From Nocardioides scoriae (GTDB taxonomy: Bacteria > Actinomycetota > Actinomycetes > Propionibacteriales > Nocardioidaceae): a DNA stretch of 64,000 bases. A model generated the notes under the pieces. The model was not told where the DNA came from. It saw only the letters and a list, made by a program, of their open reading frames with translations, and ran no database searches. The translations under genes and the position numbers were made by a program. The DNA lies in the NCBI RefSeq assembly GCF_900104965.1, contig NZ_LT629757.1, forward strand, positions 2,914,001-2,978,000, in the 5' to 3' direction. Of this stretch, positions 5,359 to 10,769 are shown in pieces; the first letter of the stretch is position 1, and the number at the start of each line of letters is the position of its first letter.

Positions 5359-6831
5359 TCACGGGGAGCCGGTGGCGCGCCCCGTCAGCCGGGCGGGGTC
5401 GACCGGCACGAAGTCGACCTTCTCGCGGACCGCGCAGTCGGGGCAGCACCAGGTGTCGGGCACGTCGGACCAGGCGGTGCCGGCCGCGAAGCCCTCGTGC
5501 TCGTCGCCGCGCTCGACCTCGTAGGTGTAGCCGCAGCCGGGGCACTGGGCCGCCAGCACCTCGTCGACCGCGGCCAGCGCGGCGGCGTCGGCGGCGTCCC
5601 GGGCGGCCTGCTCCCGCGCGGCCCGGGTGTCGGCGGCGTATAGCGCCAGGATCCGCTCGCGCTTGCGGGGCTGCAGGTTGGCGCGGGTGATGTCACCGCC
5701 GAAGTGCGCGAGCACCCGGGGGTCCATCACGCGGCGCCAGAGCGGGGGGACGACGGCGAGCACGATCATGCCGGCGTACCCGGTCGGCAGCACCGGGGAC
5801 TCCTCGAAGTCGCGCAGCGTCTGGTAGCGCCGGGTGGGGTTGGCGTGGTGGTCGCTGTGGCGCTGCAGGTGGTAGAGCAGCACGTTGGTGGCGATGTTGT
5901 TGGAGTTCCAGCTGTGGCTGGGGTCGACGCGCTCGTAGCGCTCGCGGTGGCCGACGCCGACCTTCTGGCGCAGCATGCCGTAGTGCTCCATGTAGTTGAC
6001 GACCTCGAGCAGCGAGAAGCCGACGACCGCCTGGACGACGAGCAGCGGCAGCACCTGCCAGCCCAGCACGGCCACCATGGCGCCCCACAGCACGGCCGAC
6101 ATCACCCACGCGTTGAGCACGTCGTTGCCCAGGCGGAAGGGGTGCAGGTCCTTGCGGGCGTAGCGCCGCTTCTCCAGGCGCCAGGCGCTCCTGAGCGACC
6201 CGACGACCGTGCGCGGCCAGAAGGCGTAGAAGCTCTCGCCGAAGCGGCTGCTCGCGGGGTCCTCCGGCGTCGCGACGCGGACGTGGTGGCCGCGGTTGTG
6301 CTCGATGTAGAAGTGGCCGTAGAAGCTCTGGGCCAGCGCGATCTTGGACAGCCAGCGCTCGTGGCTCTCCTTCTTGTGGCCGAGCTCGTGGGCGGTGTTG
6401 ATCCCGATCCCGCCGATGCACCCGATGGAGATCGCGACCCCGAGCTGGTCGACCAGCCCGAGCGGCGCCACGCCGAGCCACTCGGGCTTGGCGATCCACA
6501 CGAAGGCCAGCACGAAGCCGGCGTACTGGATGGGCAGGTAGGCGTAGGTGATCCACCGGTAGTAGCGGTCGCCCTCGAGCTGCTCGATGACGTCGTCGGG
6601 CGGGTTGGAGCGGTCGAGCCCGGCCACCAGGTCGATCGCCGGCACCACCGCCAGGATCACGATCGGCCCCACCCACAGCCACACCCCCCAGCCGGTCAGC
6701 TGGTGCATCCCGAACGCCACGACCGCCAGCGACGGCACCACCAGCCCGATCAGCCACAGGTAGCGCTTCTTGTCCGTCCACGCCAGCGTCGAGCCGTCCG
6801 GGACCGTCGAGTTGACCACGCTGTCAGCCAT
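5359..6831 (-). CDS. alkB: Alkane 1-monooxygenase fused to rubredoxin
   Basis: Integral-membrane di-iron enzyme that hydroxylates medium/long-chain n-alkanes at the terminal carbon, fused at its C-terminus to its own electron carrier. In the 490 residues the histidine boxes are HELGHKKESH (148-157), EHNRGHHVRVATPEDP (177-192) and LQRHSDHHANP (322-332), with the NYMEHYG motif near 279-285. Hydrophobic pairs lie at about 22-68, 96-116 and 240-275. The C-terminal rubredoxin domain shows QCPGCGYTYE and WCCPDCA iron-binding cysteine pairs. Start at the ATG at 6831, with AGAGGAG eleven bases upstream. A -35/-10 promoter and a perfect palindrome precede it; the AlkX-like gene follows. Confidence 0.96.
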   Translation of the reverse strand: MADSVVNSTVPDGSTLAWTDKKRYLWLIGLVVPSLAVVAFGMHQLTGWGVWLWVGPIVILAVVPAIDLVAGLDRSNPPDDVIEQLEGDRYYRWITYAYLPIQYAGFVLAFVWIAKPEWLGVAPLGLVDQLGVAISIGCIGGIGINTAHELGHKKESHERWLSKIALAQSFYGHFYIEHNRGHHVRVATPEDPASSRFGESFYAFWPRTVVGSLRSAWRLEKRRYARKDLHPFRLGNDVLNAWVMSAVLWGAMVAVLGWQVLPLLVVQAVVGFSLLEVVNYMEHYGMLRQKVGVGHRERYERVDPSHSWNSNNIATNVLLYHLQRHSDHHANPTRRYQTLRDFEESPVLPTGYAGMIVLAVVPPLWRRVMDPRVLAHFGGDITRANLQPRKRERILALYAADTRAAREQAARDAADAAALAAVDEVLAAQCPGCGYTYEVERGDEHEGFAAGTAWSDVPDTWCCPDCAVREKVDFVPVDPARLTGRATGSP

Positions 6832-6846
6832 CGCCTGCTCCTCTCG

Positions 6847-6873
6847 TTTGACATCTGGGAGTCAGATGTCAAA
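6847..6873. promoter_or_regulatory. Perfect 11-5-11 palindromic operator before alkB
   Basis: Arms TTTGACATCTG and CAGATGTCAAA are exact inverted copies separated by GGAGT. The site sits 13 bp downstream of the predicted -10 box and 16 bp upstream of the alkB start, so a bound dimer would block transcription at its origin. This is the expected shape of a TetR-family operator and the best candidate target of the AlkX-like protein. Confidence 0.85.
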
Positions 6874-6885
6874 GGAATGGACATG

Positions 6886-6914
6886 AACGTAGCGTTTGTA
6901 CAGTGGGTTGACAA
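6886..6914 (-). promoter_or_regulatory. alkB promoter (-35 TTGTCA, 17 bp, -10 TACGTT)
   Basis: On the minus strand TTGTCA (6914-6909) and TACGTT (6891-6886) are separated by 17 bp, close to the sigma-70 (SigA) consensus. Transcription would begin near 6879, just upstream of the palindrome at 6847-6873, giving a leader of about 50 nt. Confidence 0.7.
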
Positions 6915-6941
6915 CGGATTCGCAGATGTAAACCAGGACGT

Positions 6942-6975
6942 GGGCAGTTTCCCCGGTCGACCGGGGAAACTGCCC
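6942..6975. repeat. 34-bp perfect palindrome, left copy
   Basis: Arms GGGCAGTTTCCCCGG and CCGGGGAAACTGCCC around a central TCGA; all 17 base pairs match. It can form a strong hairpin in either strand. It lies 111 bp upstream of the alkB start and 65 bp beyond the stop of the DUF559 gene. Confidence 0.95.
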
Positions 6976-7039
6976 GCCGAATCGGACATGTCGCCCACGA
7001 AAGGGCAGTTCAGGCCGTCCAGCGCGCCCGATTCGTCGC

Positions 7040-7990
7040 TCAGGCGTGGACGGGGCCGCCCGCCAGCACGGCCGCGATGCGGGCCACGAGCTGGTCGGGT
7101 CGGGCGAGGTCGGCCCAGGTGACGCGCAGGCAGCGCCATCCGGTACGCCGGGCGATGTCCTCCTCGCGCCGCTTCTCGCGGAGCACGGCGTCGATGATCG
7201 ACTCCCCCGGCCTGCGGAACTTCAGGTACTTCTCGCGGCCGTCGAACTCCACCCACACCCGGTGCTGCGGCCAGGCCAGGTCGAGCCGGTAGACGGTGCG
7301 CCCGTCCTCGGTGATCTCGAACTGGGACACCGGCCGGGGCAGCCCCGCCCGCCAGCACCGGAACCTGAGACGGGTCTCGCCCAGGGACTCGGCACCCGGG
7401 TCGGCCAGACGGAAGGTCAGCTCCGTGGTCAACGACCCGGGGCACCGCACGAGCTCGGCGCACCGCTGCAGCAGGAGGCGCTTGGTCACCTTCTCGGTGT
7501 TCAGCAAGTGGTCGACCACGCCCAGCGCGACCTCGACCCCGCTGATGGTCGTGATGTCGAGGCAGGTGCGCGCGGGCGAGGTCACCCTCATCCCGTCGAG
7601 CGCCACGACGTCGTGCTCCTCGACCGGCGAACGGTGCTGGCGTACGCCGGCCTCCCGGCGCCCGCTCCGGTGATCCAGGCGCACCAGGTGCACGTCGTCG
7701 AGCGACAGCCCCCAGACGGGCGCGCCGTGCGCCACCGCGGCGCTGGTGTGGGACAGCGCGACCTCGGTCCCCGCGGTGCGGAGGACGCACCGCGCGACGA
7801 GCAGGTGGCGCTCGGTCTCGCTCAGGCCGTCCCAGTGCTCGCGCAGCGTGTAGGCCCCGTGGCGGATGCGGTGCAGCAGTCCGCCACGGACCAGGCGCCT
7901 GAGCGCCTTGTCACCGAGGCCGGCGGCCAGCGCGTCCCGACGGAGGAAGCAGCAGTGGCGGCCGAGCAGGAGCGCGAGGAGGTCGTCCAT
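7040..7990 (-). CDS. AbiEi-like winged helix plus DUF559 (Vsr/PD-(D/E)XK-like) protein
   Basis: 316 residues. The N-terminal part (about 1-75) resembles the winged-helix domain of AbiEi-type antitoxin proteins (RRDALAAGLGDKALRRLVRGG). The C-terminal part (about 200-312) is a DUF559 endonuclease-like fold: E205 in GETRLRF, D237 in RLDLAW, E248 and K254 in WVEFDGREKY fit a PD-(D/E)XK/Vsr active site, so the nuclease could be active. Many actinobacteria carry such proteins in multiple copies with no proven role. There is no partner gene, and it is framed by matching palindromes. The start is the ATG at 7990. Confidence 0.8.
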   Translation of the reverse strand: MDDLLALLLGRHCCFLRRDALAAGLGDKALRRLVRGGLLHRIRHGAYTLREHWDGLSETERHLLVARCVLRTAGTEVALSHTSAAVAHGAPVWGLSLDDVHLVRLDHRSGRREAGVRQHRSPVEEHDVVALDGMRVTSPARTCLDITTISGVEVALGVVDHLLNTEKVTKRLLLQRCAELVRCPGSLTTELTFRLADPGAESLGETRLRFRCWRAGLPRPVSQFEITEDGRTVYRLDLAWPQHRVWVEFDGREKYLKFRRPGESIIDAVLREKRREEDIARRTGWRCLRVTWADLARPDQLVARIAAVLAGGPVHA

Positions 7991-8184
7991 GGGCGCACCC
8001 TGCGCCCGATCGAGCCGCTCCGCGGCGCGAGATCGCCGGCCTGTGGACGGCGGGCGCCCACGGCGTACCTGTGGACGACGCCGAGGCCCGCGAACGGCCG
8101 CCGGCCCCCGCGTCGCCAACCGCACAACTCGGGCGCCGATGCCAGGCAATACTGCCCGTCGATACCCGGTATGCCGGGTTGCTC

Positions 8185-8218
8185 GGGCAGTTTCCCCGGC
8201 CGACCGGGGAAACTGCCC
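8185..8218. repeat. 34-bp near-perfect palindrome, right copy
   Basis: Differs from the left copy at one central base (GGCCGACC instead of GGTCGACC), so 16 of 17 pairs are kept. It stands 9 bp beyond the stop of the hydrolase gene at 8227, where it may also act as a terminator. A further stem (ACTGCCCG 8151-8158 with CGGGCAGT 8184-8191, enclosing ACCCGG/CCGGGT) can form next to it. Confidence 0.92.
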
Positions 8219-8226
8219 CAGCCCCG

Positions 8227-9237
8227 TCAGCCCCCCGCGCCACCCCCGAGCCCGTGGGCGTCGAGCCACCCCGCGAGCCGGTCGTACGCCGCGTGGCGGG
8301 CGTGGGGCAGGGACAGGAAGACGTCGTGCCGGGCGTCGGTGATCGGGACGATCGTGGTCTCGCCGCCGAGGCAGCCGGACCACCGGGCGATCTGGCGCAC
8401 GTCGAGCACGGTGTCGGCCCGGTCGCTGGCGTCGGTGTACTCCGAGGAGTAGTGGGTCTTGTCCGACCGGAGCACGAGCGAGGGGACGCCGACGTCGAGG
8501 CCGCGGTGGAGGCGGGCGTGGCCGCGGCGGACGGCGTTGAGCCAGCCGAGGGTCACCGGGAAGCCCTCGAGCGGCTTCCAGGACAGGTCGAAGTCCCACT
8601 CGCCGGTGCCGCTGACGTGCAGCGAGGTGCCGTAGTGACCGACCGGCATGGGCAGCGAGCGGAACGGCTGGACCTTGCCGACCACGCGCAGCGCCTGGGT
8701 CACCGGGCCGCGCTGGACGGGCTTGCCCTGGAGGTCGAACCACGGGCTGTTGAGCACCAGCGCCGTGACCGGCGACGGGGCGCCGCCCCGGGCGCGACGA
8801 CGGCGGTCGAGCCAGAGCGGGACCATCAGGCCGCCGGTCGAGTGGGCCACCGCGACGACCGGCAGGTCGGGGTGGGCCGCGGCGAGCTGCTCGACGGCGA
8901 GGTCGAGCTCGGCGTCGCACAGGGCGAGGTCGGAGACGTAGTGCGGGGTCTGGCCCTCGCGCGAGGCCCGCCCGCACTTGCGCAGGTCGAGGGCGTAGAA
9001 GGCCAGGCCACGCTCGGCGAAGAAGTCGGCGAGCTCGGTCTGGAAGAAGTAGTCGGTGAACCCGTGGACGTAGAGGACCGACCCGGTGACCTGCTCGCCC
9101 TCGCGGACCGTGCGGCGCACCAGCACCGCCTCGACGTCGGCCTCCCCGTCGGGGTCGGGCCCGAGCGAGAAGGTCAGCTGCTCGTAGCCCTCGCCGAGGA
9201 CGTCGGGGCCCCAGGCCCCCACCGTGGCGGTCCTCAC
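8227..9237 (-). CDS. Alpha/beta hydrolase, lysophospholipase-like, coupled to BVMO
   Basis: 336-residue serine hydrolase. The oxyanion-side motif is VLYVHGFTDYFFQTE, the nucleophile is the Ser in VAHSTGG, and the likely acid and histidine lie in [10 protein letters not shown] and [10 protein letters not shown]. The GTG start at 9237 overlaps the monooxygenase stop (GTGA), so the two are translated together. Baeyer-Villiger enzymes produce esters or lactones, so this enzyme is the obvious candidate to hydrolyse that product. A clear paralogue with the same partner sits at 47883-48863. Confidence 0.85.
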   Translation of the reverse strand: MRTATVGAWGPDVLGEGYEQLTFSLGPDPDGEADVEAVLVRRTVREGEQVTGSVLYVHGFTDYFFQTELADFFAERGLAFYALDLRKCGRASREGQTPHYVSDLALCDAELDLAVEQLAAAHPDLPVVAVAHSTGGLMVPLWLDRRRRARGGAPSPVTALVLNSPWFDLQGKPVQRGPVTQALRVVGKVQPFRSLPMPVGHYGTSLHVSGTGEWDFDLSWKPLEGFPVTLGWLNAVRRGHARLHRGLDVGVPSLVLRSDKTHYSSEYTDASDRADTVLDVRQIARWSGCLGGETTIVPITDARHDVFLSLPHARHAAYDRLAGWLDAHGLGGGAGG

Positions 9238-10769
9238 GCCACCGACTCCGCCGCGTCGTCGCGGGCACCGGCCAGCTCGGAGCGCGGGACGACCCGCAGC
9301 TCCTGGGTCAGGTCGCCGTGCAGGGTCTGGCGCCGGTCGATCGGGTAGCTCTGCGTGATCAGCCACGGCCGGCGGTGCCCCTGCTGCGGCAGCTGGTCGG
9401 CCGAGCGCTTGATGTAGCCCGAGGCGAGGTCGAGCAGCGGCCGCGGCTGCAGCTCGCCCTCGGGCTCCGGGACGGCGTACGCCGCGTCGCGCTCGCGCAT
9501 CAGGTTGAGCACCCGGGTCGCGAGCACGCCGGTGATGTCGGCGCGCAGCGTCCACGACGCGTTGGTGTAGCCGATCACCCGGACGTAGTTGGGCACGCCG
9601 GTCACCATCGCGCCGCGCCACATGAACTCCGAGCCGAGGTCCACCGGCGCACCGTCGACCTCGATCTCCATGCCGCCGGCGACGTCGAGGCTCAGGCCGG
9701 TCGCGGTGACCAGCACGTCGGCCTCGAGCACGCGGCCCGAGGAGAGCCGCACGCCCTCGGGCACGACGGAGTCGATGGTGTCGGTGACCACCTCGGCGTC
9801 ACCGCGCTTGATGGCCTTGAACAGGTCGCCGTCGGGCACCACGCACAGCCGCTGGTCCCAGGGGTCGTACGGCGGGGAGAAGTTGTCGGCGGCAGCCTCG
9901 GCGCCGAGGTAGCGGCCCACCCCGCTGGAGAGGATCTTCTTGCCCACGTCGGGGAAGCGCCGGAAGAAGGCGTAGGTGCCGGCCTGGTAGGCGATGTTCT
10001 TGGCCCGGATCACGCGGTACGCCGCCATCTCGGGCAGCCACCGCTGCGCCAGCCCGGCGATCTTGTCGTGGCGCGGCAGCGCGGCGATGTAGGTCGGCGT
10101 GCGCTGCAGCATCGTCACGTGGGCCGCCTCGCCGGTGATCGAGGGCACGATCGTCACGGCGGTGGCGCCCGACCCGACGACCACGACCTTCTTGCCGGTG
10201 ACGTCGAGGTCCTCGGGCCAGAACTGCGGGTGGACGACCTGGCCGGCGAAGTCGGCGATGCCGGTCAGCTGCGCGTCGTACGGCGCGTCGTAGCTGTAGT
10301 AGCCGTGCGAGCCGATCACGAAGTCGCAGGTCAGCTCCTGGCGGCCCGAGGCGGTCTCCACCACGAGCGTCCAGCGGCCGGTGGCGGTCGAGAACGACGC
10401 GTGGACCACGCGGGTCGAGTAGCGGACGTGCTCGTCGATGCCGAACTCGGCGGCGGTGTCCTTGATGTACTGCAGGATCCCGGGGCCGTCGGCCAGCGCC
10501 TGGTCGCCCTCCCAGGGGCGGAAGGTGAACCCGAAGGTGAAGATGTCGGAGTCCGAGCGCACGCCGGGGTATCGGAACAGGTCCCAGGTGCCGCCCATCG
10601 ACTCGCGGCCCTCGAGGATCAGGTAGTCGCGCTCGGGGCACTCGGTCTGGAGCCGGTAGCCGGCACCGATGCCCGAGAGCCCTGCACCGATCACGACGAC
10701 GTCGACGTGGTCGGGCAGGGCCCGCGAGCCGGCTCCGGCGGCAGCGCCGGGAAGGGACGAGGAGGTCAT
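9234..10769 (-). CDS. EthA-type Baeyer-Villiger flavin monooxygenase (copy 1)
   Basis: FAD- and NADPH-dependent enzyme that inserts oxygen next to a ketone. In 511 residues the FAD Rossmann motif is VVVIGAGLSGIGAG (24-37), the BVMO fingerprint FAGQVVHPQFWP is at 174-185, and the NADPH motif VVVVGSGATAVTIVP is at 195-209. GGTWDLFRYPGVRSDSD is typical of the EthA branch. The natural substrate is unknown; EthA-like enzymes take aliphatic and phenyl ketones. The neighbouring alkB suggests subterminal alkane or ketone breakdown. The 524-residue paralogue lies at 48860-50434. Confidence 0.92.
   Translation of the reverse strand: MTSSSLPGAAAGAGSRALPDHVDVVVIGAGLSGIGAGYRLQTECPERDYLILEGRESMGGTWDLFRYPGVRSDSDIFTFGFTFRPWEGDQALADGPGILQYIKDTAAEFGIDEHVRYSTRVVHASFSTATGRWTLVVETASGRQELTCDFVIGSHGYYSYDAPYDAQLTGIADFAGQVVHPQFWPEDLDVTGKKVVVVGSGATAVTIVPSITGEAAHVTMLQRTPTYIAALPRHDKIAGLAQRWLPEMAAYRVIRAKNIAYQAGTYAFFRRFPDVGKKILSSGVGRYLGAEAAADNFSPPYDPWDQRLCVVPDGDLFKAIKRGDAEVVTDTIDSVVPEGVRLSSGRVLEADVLVTATGLSLDVAGGMEIEVDGAPVDLGSEFMWRGAMVTGVPNYVRVIGYTNASWTLRADITGVLATRVLNLMRERDAAYAVPEPEGELQPRPLLDLASGYIKRSADQLPQQGHRRPWLITQSYPIDRRQTLHGDLTQELRVVPRSELAGARDDAAESVA

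Follow-up and report, generated by a model that had tools for sequence, protein, structure and literature searches.

A gene for a predicted AbiEi-Vsr-like nuclease in Nocardioides scoriae, framed by inverted copies of a dispersed palindromic repeat, resembles a REPtron without a RAYT

RAYTs are the enzymes usually named for the spread of REP sequences. According to two studies, REPtrons comprise a single-copy chromosomal RAYT gene beside palindromes that are dispersed outside genes, several distinct gene/repeat pairs may share a genome, and inheritance is mainly vertical at the species level (PMC3116915, PMC8266576). A 2013 survey describes TIRtrons, in which the gene for a tyrosine transposase (TIRYT) lies between long inverted repeats (TIRs), some of them double-palindromic, with moderately abundant dispersed copies of the TIR, as well as CGTC-tagged REPs, for which it states that a dedicated transposase is lacking (PMC3733652). 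The survey left open which enzyme, if any, serves RAYT-less REPs, and a word-start search of it yields 0 occurrences of 'Actinobacteria' (PMC3733652).

Here, we compare with these systems a palindrome-framed gene for a predicted nuclease of the actinomycete Nocardioides scoriae. The window, i.e., the whole stretch of 64,000 nucleotides that was analysed, corresponds to positions 2914001-2978000 of a 4.06 Mb, one-contig genome (G000, hereafter the own genome). The relevant features, in window coordinates, are as follows:

5359..6831, minus strand: left neighbour, rubredoxin-fused gene of the fatty-acid-desaturase family (AlkB-like; Pfam FA_desaturase, Rubredoxin)
6942-6975, no strand: left palindrome, outer end of the unit, 34 bp, perfect, with 17-bp arms
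6942..7037, plus strand: left inverted repeat E, with palindrome, 27-nt spacer, second hairpin from 7003 and tail to ~7037
7003..7010, plus strand: left half-site GGGCAGTT, the 5' arm of the second hairpin of E
7040..7990, minus strand: gene for a 316-aa protein with an AbiEi-like DNA-binding half and a Vsr/I-Bth0305I-like nuclease (predicted from Pfam, AlphaFold2 and VIA-align)
8119..8218, minus strand: right inverted repeat E, in mirror orientation to the left E
8151..8157, minus strand: right half-site ACTGCCC, an arm of the second hairpin of E
8185-8218, no strand: right palindrome, outer end of the unit, 34 bp, with one mismatched central pair
8227..9438 (start approximate), minus strand: right neighbour, alpha/beta hydrolase gene (Pfam Hydrolase_4)

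As a preceding sequence-only reading of this DNA had proposed, there is a 34-bp palindrome at each end, and an inner half-site lies exactly 27 bp inward of the nearer palindrome on both sides, in mirror symmetry. The two palindromes are identical at 33 of 34 bases, and the right one is located just past the stop codon of the hydrolase gene. Their arm, GGGCAGTTTCCCCGG, has 4 mismatch-free occurrences in the window, all within these two palindromes. If up to 3 mismatches are allowed, it has 10 matches; shuffled sequences average 4.0, and none of 100 reached 10. The half-sites, however, are not lone, as had been thought. When genomic copies were set side by side, the palindrome proved to be part of an oriented two-hairpin repeat of ~100 bp, denoted E, in which it is followed by a 27-nt spacer, a second hairpin starting GGGCAGTT, and a tail close to GCGCCCGATTCGTCC. 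The half-site is an arm of this second hairpin, because the arm (at least 10 of 13 bases) recurs at the same distance, on one side, in 32 of the 36 genomic palindromes and in none on the other side. In 4 of these 32, a second full palindrome occupies the place of the second hairpin, and the arm is clearly absent at the own-genome copies 14075 and 2643462. The two E copies in the window face each other with their tails gene-ward, and both form hairpins better than shuffled sequences (left E, 6942-7041, z -4.63; right E, z -5.83); an Rfam scan of 6800-8300 produced no match near the gathering score. Tandem palindrome pairs at 61-62 bp occur at G000:1680217/1680278 and G000:2388067/2388129 and, in another genome of the genus, at G002:1099157/1099219; in these pairs, the full palindrome replaces the second hairpin, as if converted or duplicated. 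A separate short inverted repeat, TTTGACATCTG...CAGATGTCAAA (window 6847-6873), upstream of the AlkB-like gene, is nearly unchanged in the genus genomes G002 and G009 and altered in a third, G001, and is perhaps an operator.

The gene consists of a single open frame, 316 codons long (7043-7990, followed by the stop). Its product, modelled by AlphaFold2 with a pLDDT of 94.9 and a pTM of 0.90, is predicted to be split into an AbiEi-like part (~1-197) and a nuclease (~198-316). In VIA-align comparisons, in which Z scores of 7-10 speak for a shared fold, not activity, and scores below 8 may reflect a common arrangement, the Streptococcus agalactiae AbiEi antitoxin (6y8q; Z 9.8, rmsd 5.9, 182 aligned) is matched by residues 1-197, as is Rv2827c (1zel; Z 8.1), and residues 202-313 match the catalytic domain of the homing endonuclease I-Bth0305I (3r3p; Z 8.4, rmsd 2.6, 96 aligned), the next nuclease matches being NGO0050 (3hrl; Z 7.8) and Vsr (1vsr; Z 7.1, rmsd 3.5, 106 aligned). 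Sequence models agree for the first part: Pfam AbiEi_4 matches residues 3-49 (E 1.4e-8) and is found in 36 of 48 aligned homologues, and the PADLOC AbiEi model matches at E 5e-16. The Pfam DUF559 model, by which the gene had originally been named, matched a single one of the 48 members (E 0.0099), and NCBIfam matched none of them, so that the designation as a nuclease rests on structure and on conserved residues: in an alignment of 26 genus members, E205, D237, E248, D250 and K254 show either no variation or a conservation of at least 90%. The initial reading as a winged helix joined to a Vsr-like domain agrees with the predicted structure. The protein is predicted to join an AbiEi-type DNA-binding half to a Vsr/homing-endonuclease-type nuclease, and it is under purifying selection, with dN/dS of 0.18-0.39 among the three orthologues. 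No match to it was found in plasmid and phage collections at E 1e-10, and plasmid or phage cargo was rejected on this ground.

The resemblance to AbiE type IV toxin-antitoxin systems is confined to the N-terminal two thirds of the protein; here, the AbiEi-like part is fused to a nuclease, and none of the three neighbours scanned with Pfam (the desaturase-rubredoxin gene, the hydrolase gene and an FMO-like gene) encodes an AbiEii-type toxin. Binding to inverted repeats is reported for both AbiEi and Rv2827c, and bending of DNA for AbiEi (PMC7319586). EDxHD/Vsr-like homing endonucleases such as I-Bth0305I share the nuclease fold, as judged by structure comparison, but the protein described here differs from them in its AbiEi-type DNA-binding half, in the intergenic location of the unit with its palindromic ends, and in the presence of dispersed solo repeats.

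Contrary to what would be expected of a peculiarity of this locus, the 34-mer is found, with up to 3 mismatches, at 36 places in the own genome, the window pair included; the reversed pattern has 0 matches there. Like REPtrons, then, the gene is flanked by palindromes that are dispersed outside genes, both at these 36 own-genome places and in the case of four further palindromes described below. As judged by a crude codon-usage gene finder, at least 22 of the 36 lie 3-20 bp past the stop codon of a gene reading towards the palindrome, and 2 lie inside a predicted gene. Three differences from REPtrons are apparent: the enzyme is predicted to be AbiEi-like plus Vsr-like, not an HUH/Y1 tyrosine transposase; no conserved GTAG tag was seen by eye at the palindrome foot among the 36 own-genome copies set side by side; and most of the dispersed copies consist of one E repeat instead of an inverted pair. 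Nor was a RAYT found: a search of the own genome with Y1_Tnp (PF01797) gave 0 matches at E <= 0.001, with a control positive in 5 of 14 genomes. For this genome, the original suggestion of a RAYT-like layout that lacks a RAYT therefore holds. The closest architecture is that of the TIRtron, with its gene between long, partly self-complementary inverted repeats of which dispersed copies exist; TIRYTs, however, retain the HUH motif and the catalytic tyrosine, whereas the fold predicted here is another, and no TIRYT protein of the IS200/IS605 group was found in the own genome, in keeping with the lack of a Y1_Tnp match. With CGTC-tagged REPs, the repeat shares dispersal outside genes without a RAYT, but those REPs are in other phyla and have another repeat structure. 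In short, the unit behaves like a REPtron but is none.

The position of many copies just behind stop codons invites an explanation at the RNA level, whereby E is a 3'-UTR hairpin active as a terminator or in stability, the protein processes or protects the RNAs that carry it, and E marks regulated genes. This agrees with the folding of 106 of 125 flanking repeat copies at z < -2 under RNA parameters and has a parallel in FASTKD4, a Vsr-like protein reported to act on mRNA (PMC11879112). Nevertheless, we find this explanation improbable: taken alone, it accounts neither for the mirror-image copies at the gene nor for the gains of E and the joint difference between lineages presented below, and the AbiEi-family domains studied so far are DNA binders.

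The distribution of the repeat across genomes follows that of the gene. A close orthologue of the window protein is encoded in 3 of 24 genomes of the genus, i.e., the own genome and, at 65%, G002 and G009; the best match in the other genus genomes is 52%. The window palindrome is confined to the same three of the 24 genus genomes searched, with 36 copies of a CCCCGG type in the own genome and copies of a CACCGG type in G002 (23) and G009 (32); one mixed own-genome copy also matches the CACCGG-type pattern. A second palindrome, found at the own-genome paralogue at 2475781 and also at the related L074 and L076, occurs at 28 own, 7 G002 and 11 G009 places and is absent from the other 21 genus genomes. 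That of the paralogue at 2365088 occupies 8 own-genome places, three of them at the gene, and none in the 23 other genus genomes. In the genome of the homologue L118, from Pimelobacter simplex, the corresponding palindrome is found at 10 places, two of which coincide with the coordinates of the gene's flanks, and 13 other genomes have none. The pattern of the L089 palindrome was searched in 14 genomes other than that of L089 and matched in three, namely, those of L083, L085 and L093: of 13 places in the L083 genome, 12 are identical to one of the two palindromes flanking L083, and the 5 and 9 places in the L085 and L093 genomes are variants of the copies at those genes. The latter two are weaker cases of co-occurrence because the matched copies differ from the copies at the genes. 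Across the genomes searched, five flanking palindromes were thus each dispersed together with the matching gene and essentially absent elsewhere, and we regard it as well supported that gene and repeat belong together.

Different members of the family have different repeats. The own genome holds 7 matches to the protein, the six others being 51, 48, 41, 32, 31 and 34% identical, and no near-identical full unit is among the seven. The window palindrome was not seen near these paralogues, which does not count against the pairing because they carry other repeats of their own; among the six, L050 is without a flanking repeat and the repeat of L049 is a low-complexity tandem repeat. Most of the homologues inspected in the same genus are flanked by inverted repeats, the sequence of which differs from homologue to homologue. 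For a wider comparison, 80 named public loci out of at least 548 relatives were fetched with the pattern [GLV]EFDG[RKF]xKY, mainly from Nocardioides but also from Pimelobacter, Pseudonocardia, Phytoactinopolyspora, Geodermatophilus, Blastococcus and others; 79 of the 80 were testable (the flank of L142 is too short), and the named-set alignment A2 takes in 47 of the 80, L136 having been left out for a stop codon in the stretch. An own flanking inverted repeat (self score >=25; median 38) was detected in 63 of the 79, whereas shifted windows at the same loci yielded 0 of 415 at this score (highest 18.5) and pairs across loci 4 of 469, which presumably represent homologous flanks. When the flanks were limited to 300 bp, such a repeat was carried by 62 of the 79 homologues but by 0 of 131 real neighbouring genes (highest 18.5). 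Chance or general hairpin richness was rejected by these three comparisons. Pairs of homologues have matching repeats (score >=20) in 11 of 11 cases at a protein identity of >=85%, in 22 of 25 at 65-85%, in 10 of 60 at 55-65%, in 22 of 619 at 45-55% and in 13 of 2771 below 45%; matching thus falls with protein identity, which indicates that most genes have their own repeat and that both diverge together. As to the question whether homologues are flanked by the same palindrome, most of those tested have flanking inverted repeats, though of other sequence.

The flanking repeats could also be the operators or terminators of the gene itself, the protein being a mere repressor and the dispersed copies owing their spread to a different transposase or to ordinary recombination. 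Autorepression through inverted repeats at the promoter is reported for AbiEi and Rv2827c (PMC7319586), and one repeat of the unit lies upstream of the gene start, the other beside its 3' end. We consider this reading very unlikely, in view of the mirror-oriented copies at both ends in the 63 homologues, the absence or near-absence of the repeat families from searched genomes without the gene, and the retention of E205, D237, E248, D250 and K254 in the nuclease half, with the reservation that, in the named set, the invariance of E248, D250 and K254 is by design because these residues are fixed by the search pattern. The remaining 16 of the 79 homologues, including the two Blastococcus loci, have scores below 25; L143 and L144 (Blastococcus) and L120, L125 and L129 (Nocardioides), which lack a detectable flanking repeat (scores 10-12.5), may represent units that have decayed or been domesticated. 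The outer palindrome is not always the longer hairpin: some homologues have a longer second hairpin, with a perfect arm of 25 in L141 and of 16 in L087, so that subfamilies may differ in which hairpin is mainly bound.

The unit occupies the same place between the AlkB-like and hydrolase genes in G000, G002 and G009. The AlkB-like gene is present in 20 of the 24 genus genomes (E <= 1e-150): three of these have the unit beside it, one has the hydrolase gene beside it without the unit, and the other 16 have neither within 1.5 kb (two are cut by contig ends) and so are uninformative. In the single genome with the hydrolase gene alone, G001, ~110 bp separate the matched parts of the two genes, as expected of an empty site. 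The unit ends at or near the outer edges of its palindromes: on the left, similarity to G001 stops within ~10 bp of the edge, and on the right, the short intergenic stretch aligns less sharply. Terminal inverted repeats together with an empty site recall an insertion sequence, but several near-identical full copies, as such an element would have, are lacking in the own genome. The same evidence bears on the possibility of a homing-type selfish element that moves as a whole, its nuclease cutting the empty site and the unit being copied in, with solo E repeats as what is left of one-ended or incomplete conversion. The G001 empty site and the likeness of the nuclease half to the I-Bth0305I catalytic domain (Z 8.4, 96 aligned, i.e., a shared fold) would fit such an element; still, we deem it unlikely because the own genome has only diverged paralogues (31-51%) and no near-identical full units, solo copies are far more numerous than units, the site is intergenic and not a conserved coding target, and the unit is at the same place in three genomes.

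Solo repeats, too, have empty sites. In G009, a solo E (C2:98979) lies directly behind a stop codon and is missing from both G002 and G000, the flanks of which are 91-94% alike; its absence in both points to a gain in G009, and a recent one is probable, although the insert holds a further ~110 bp of non-E sequence and two independent losses are possible instead. At a second site of this kind, E is present in G002 and G009 and absent from G000. Inspection of three empty sites revealed no evident target-site duplication, and no excision footprint was seen.

The dispersed copies also differ jointly between lineages. Twelve places in G000 have an orthologous place in G002 or G009, seven identified by both flanks (five solos and two unit ends) and five by one. 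All 12 G000 copies have C at arm position 11 in both arms, and their orthologous partners have A in both arms, apart from two G009 copies with A in one. Genome-wide, 35 of the 36 copies in G000 are C/C; in G002, 21 of the 22 compared copies are A/A and the remaining one is mixed, and in G009, 21 of the 29 compared copies are A/A, 7 are mixed and 1 is C/C, the 22 and 29 places being a subset of all places in these genomes. Thus, dispersed copies at the same places differ together, mostly on both arms, between lineages. Simple vertical inheritance is insufficient to produce such a difference, whereas conversion between copies or repeated replacement would fit. The same outcome could have arisen from nuclease-independent recombination among the repeats or from insertions that recur at preferred places.

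Taken together, we favour, as the probable explanation, that the gene and its flanking repeats are a unit of a REPtron/TIRtron-like system run by an unrelated AbiEi-Vsr nuclease and not by a RAYT. We infer that the protein binds, cuts and spreads the repeat. Because of the fold and the pairing of gene and repeat, the AbiEi half would bind the cognate palindrome, in the way reported for AbiEi and Rv2827c with their inverted repeats (PMC7319586), and the Vsr-like half would nick or cut at or beside it. Because of the gain and the concerted difference, repair of the break, templated by another E copy, may be envisaged to create new solo E copies, and the same repair to overwrite variant copies, which would produce the concerted difference. 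As with RAYTs, inheritance of the whole unit now seems to be mainly vertical. In a broader formulation, the chances of which we put at about even, there is a whole class of bacterial repeat systems in which a protein combining an AbiEi palindrome-binding domain with a Vsr-like nuclease spreads and homogenises its cognate palindromes by a transposase-free break-and-copy route, a gene-conversion drive; in Nocardioides and other actinomycetes, a genome would have several such gene/repeat pairs, each private. The boldest proposal of the sequence-only reading, that of a RAYT-like arrangement around an unrelated nuclease, has largely held up: the palindrome is not unique to the locus, most homologues have flanking repeats, and empty sites exist both for the unit (G001) and for a solo repeat (the G009 E missing in G002 and G000).

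The arrangement looks like a hitherto undescribed route by which DNA repeats spread in bacteria; a search of open-licence PubMed Central, preprints excluded, returned no description of an AbiEi-nuclease fusion or DUF559-type gene with flanking palindromes. An unrelated protein with the genomic signature of a repeat-spreading enzyme, found in actinomycetes in many gene/repeat pairs, provides new material for testing how bacterial palindromic repeats originate and spread, namely, dozens of natural pairs that differ in sequence and close relatives with filled and empty sites. The concerted difference between lineages is, in itself, an observation that demands explanation. Furthermore, the findings offer a function for a large set of nuclease genes unnamed by NCBIfam and, perhaps, might yield small palindrome-specific nucleases.

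Two observations concern the palindromes of G009. This genome has two further units, L223:2877-4074 (C2:221376/222540) and L216:1931-3142 (C1:706930/708108), with palindromes close to the type at its orthologue of the window gene, 1.16-1.18 kb apart, and with inverted inner repeats of their own. They enclose open frames that are only remote relatives of the family (E 4e-19 and 1e-8 with the A1 profile) and have no Pfam match below E 0.04, and one palindrome type may serve, or have been converted into, several nuclease units. In L219, three palindromes lie 227-228 bp apart (G009 C1:1013242, 1013469, 1013697); the same place holds one palindrome in G000 and two in G002, apparently as a consequence of tandem amplification.
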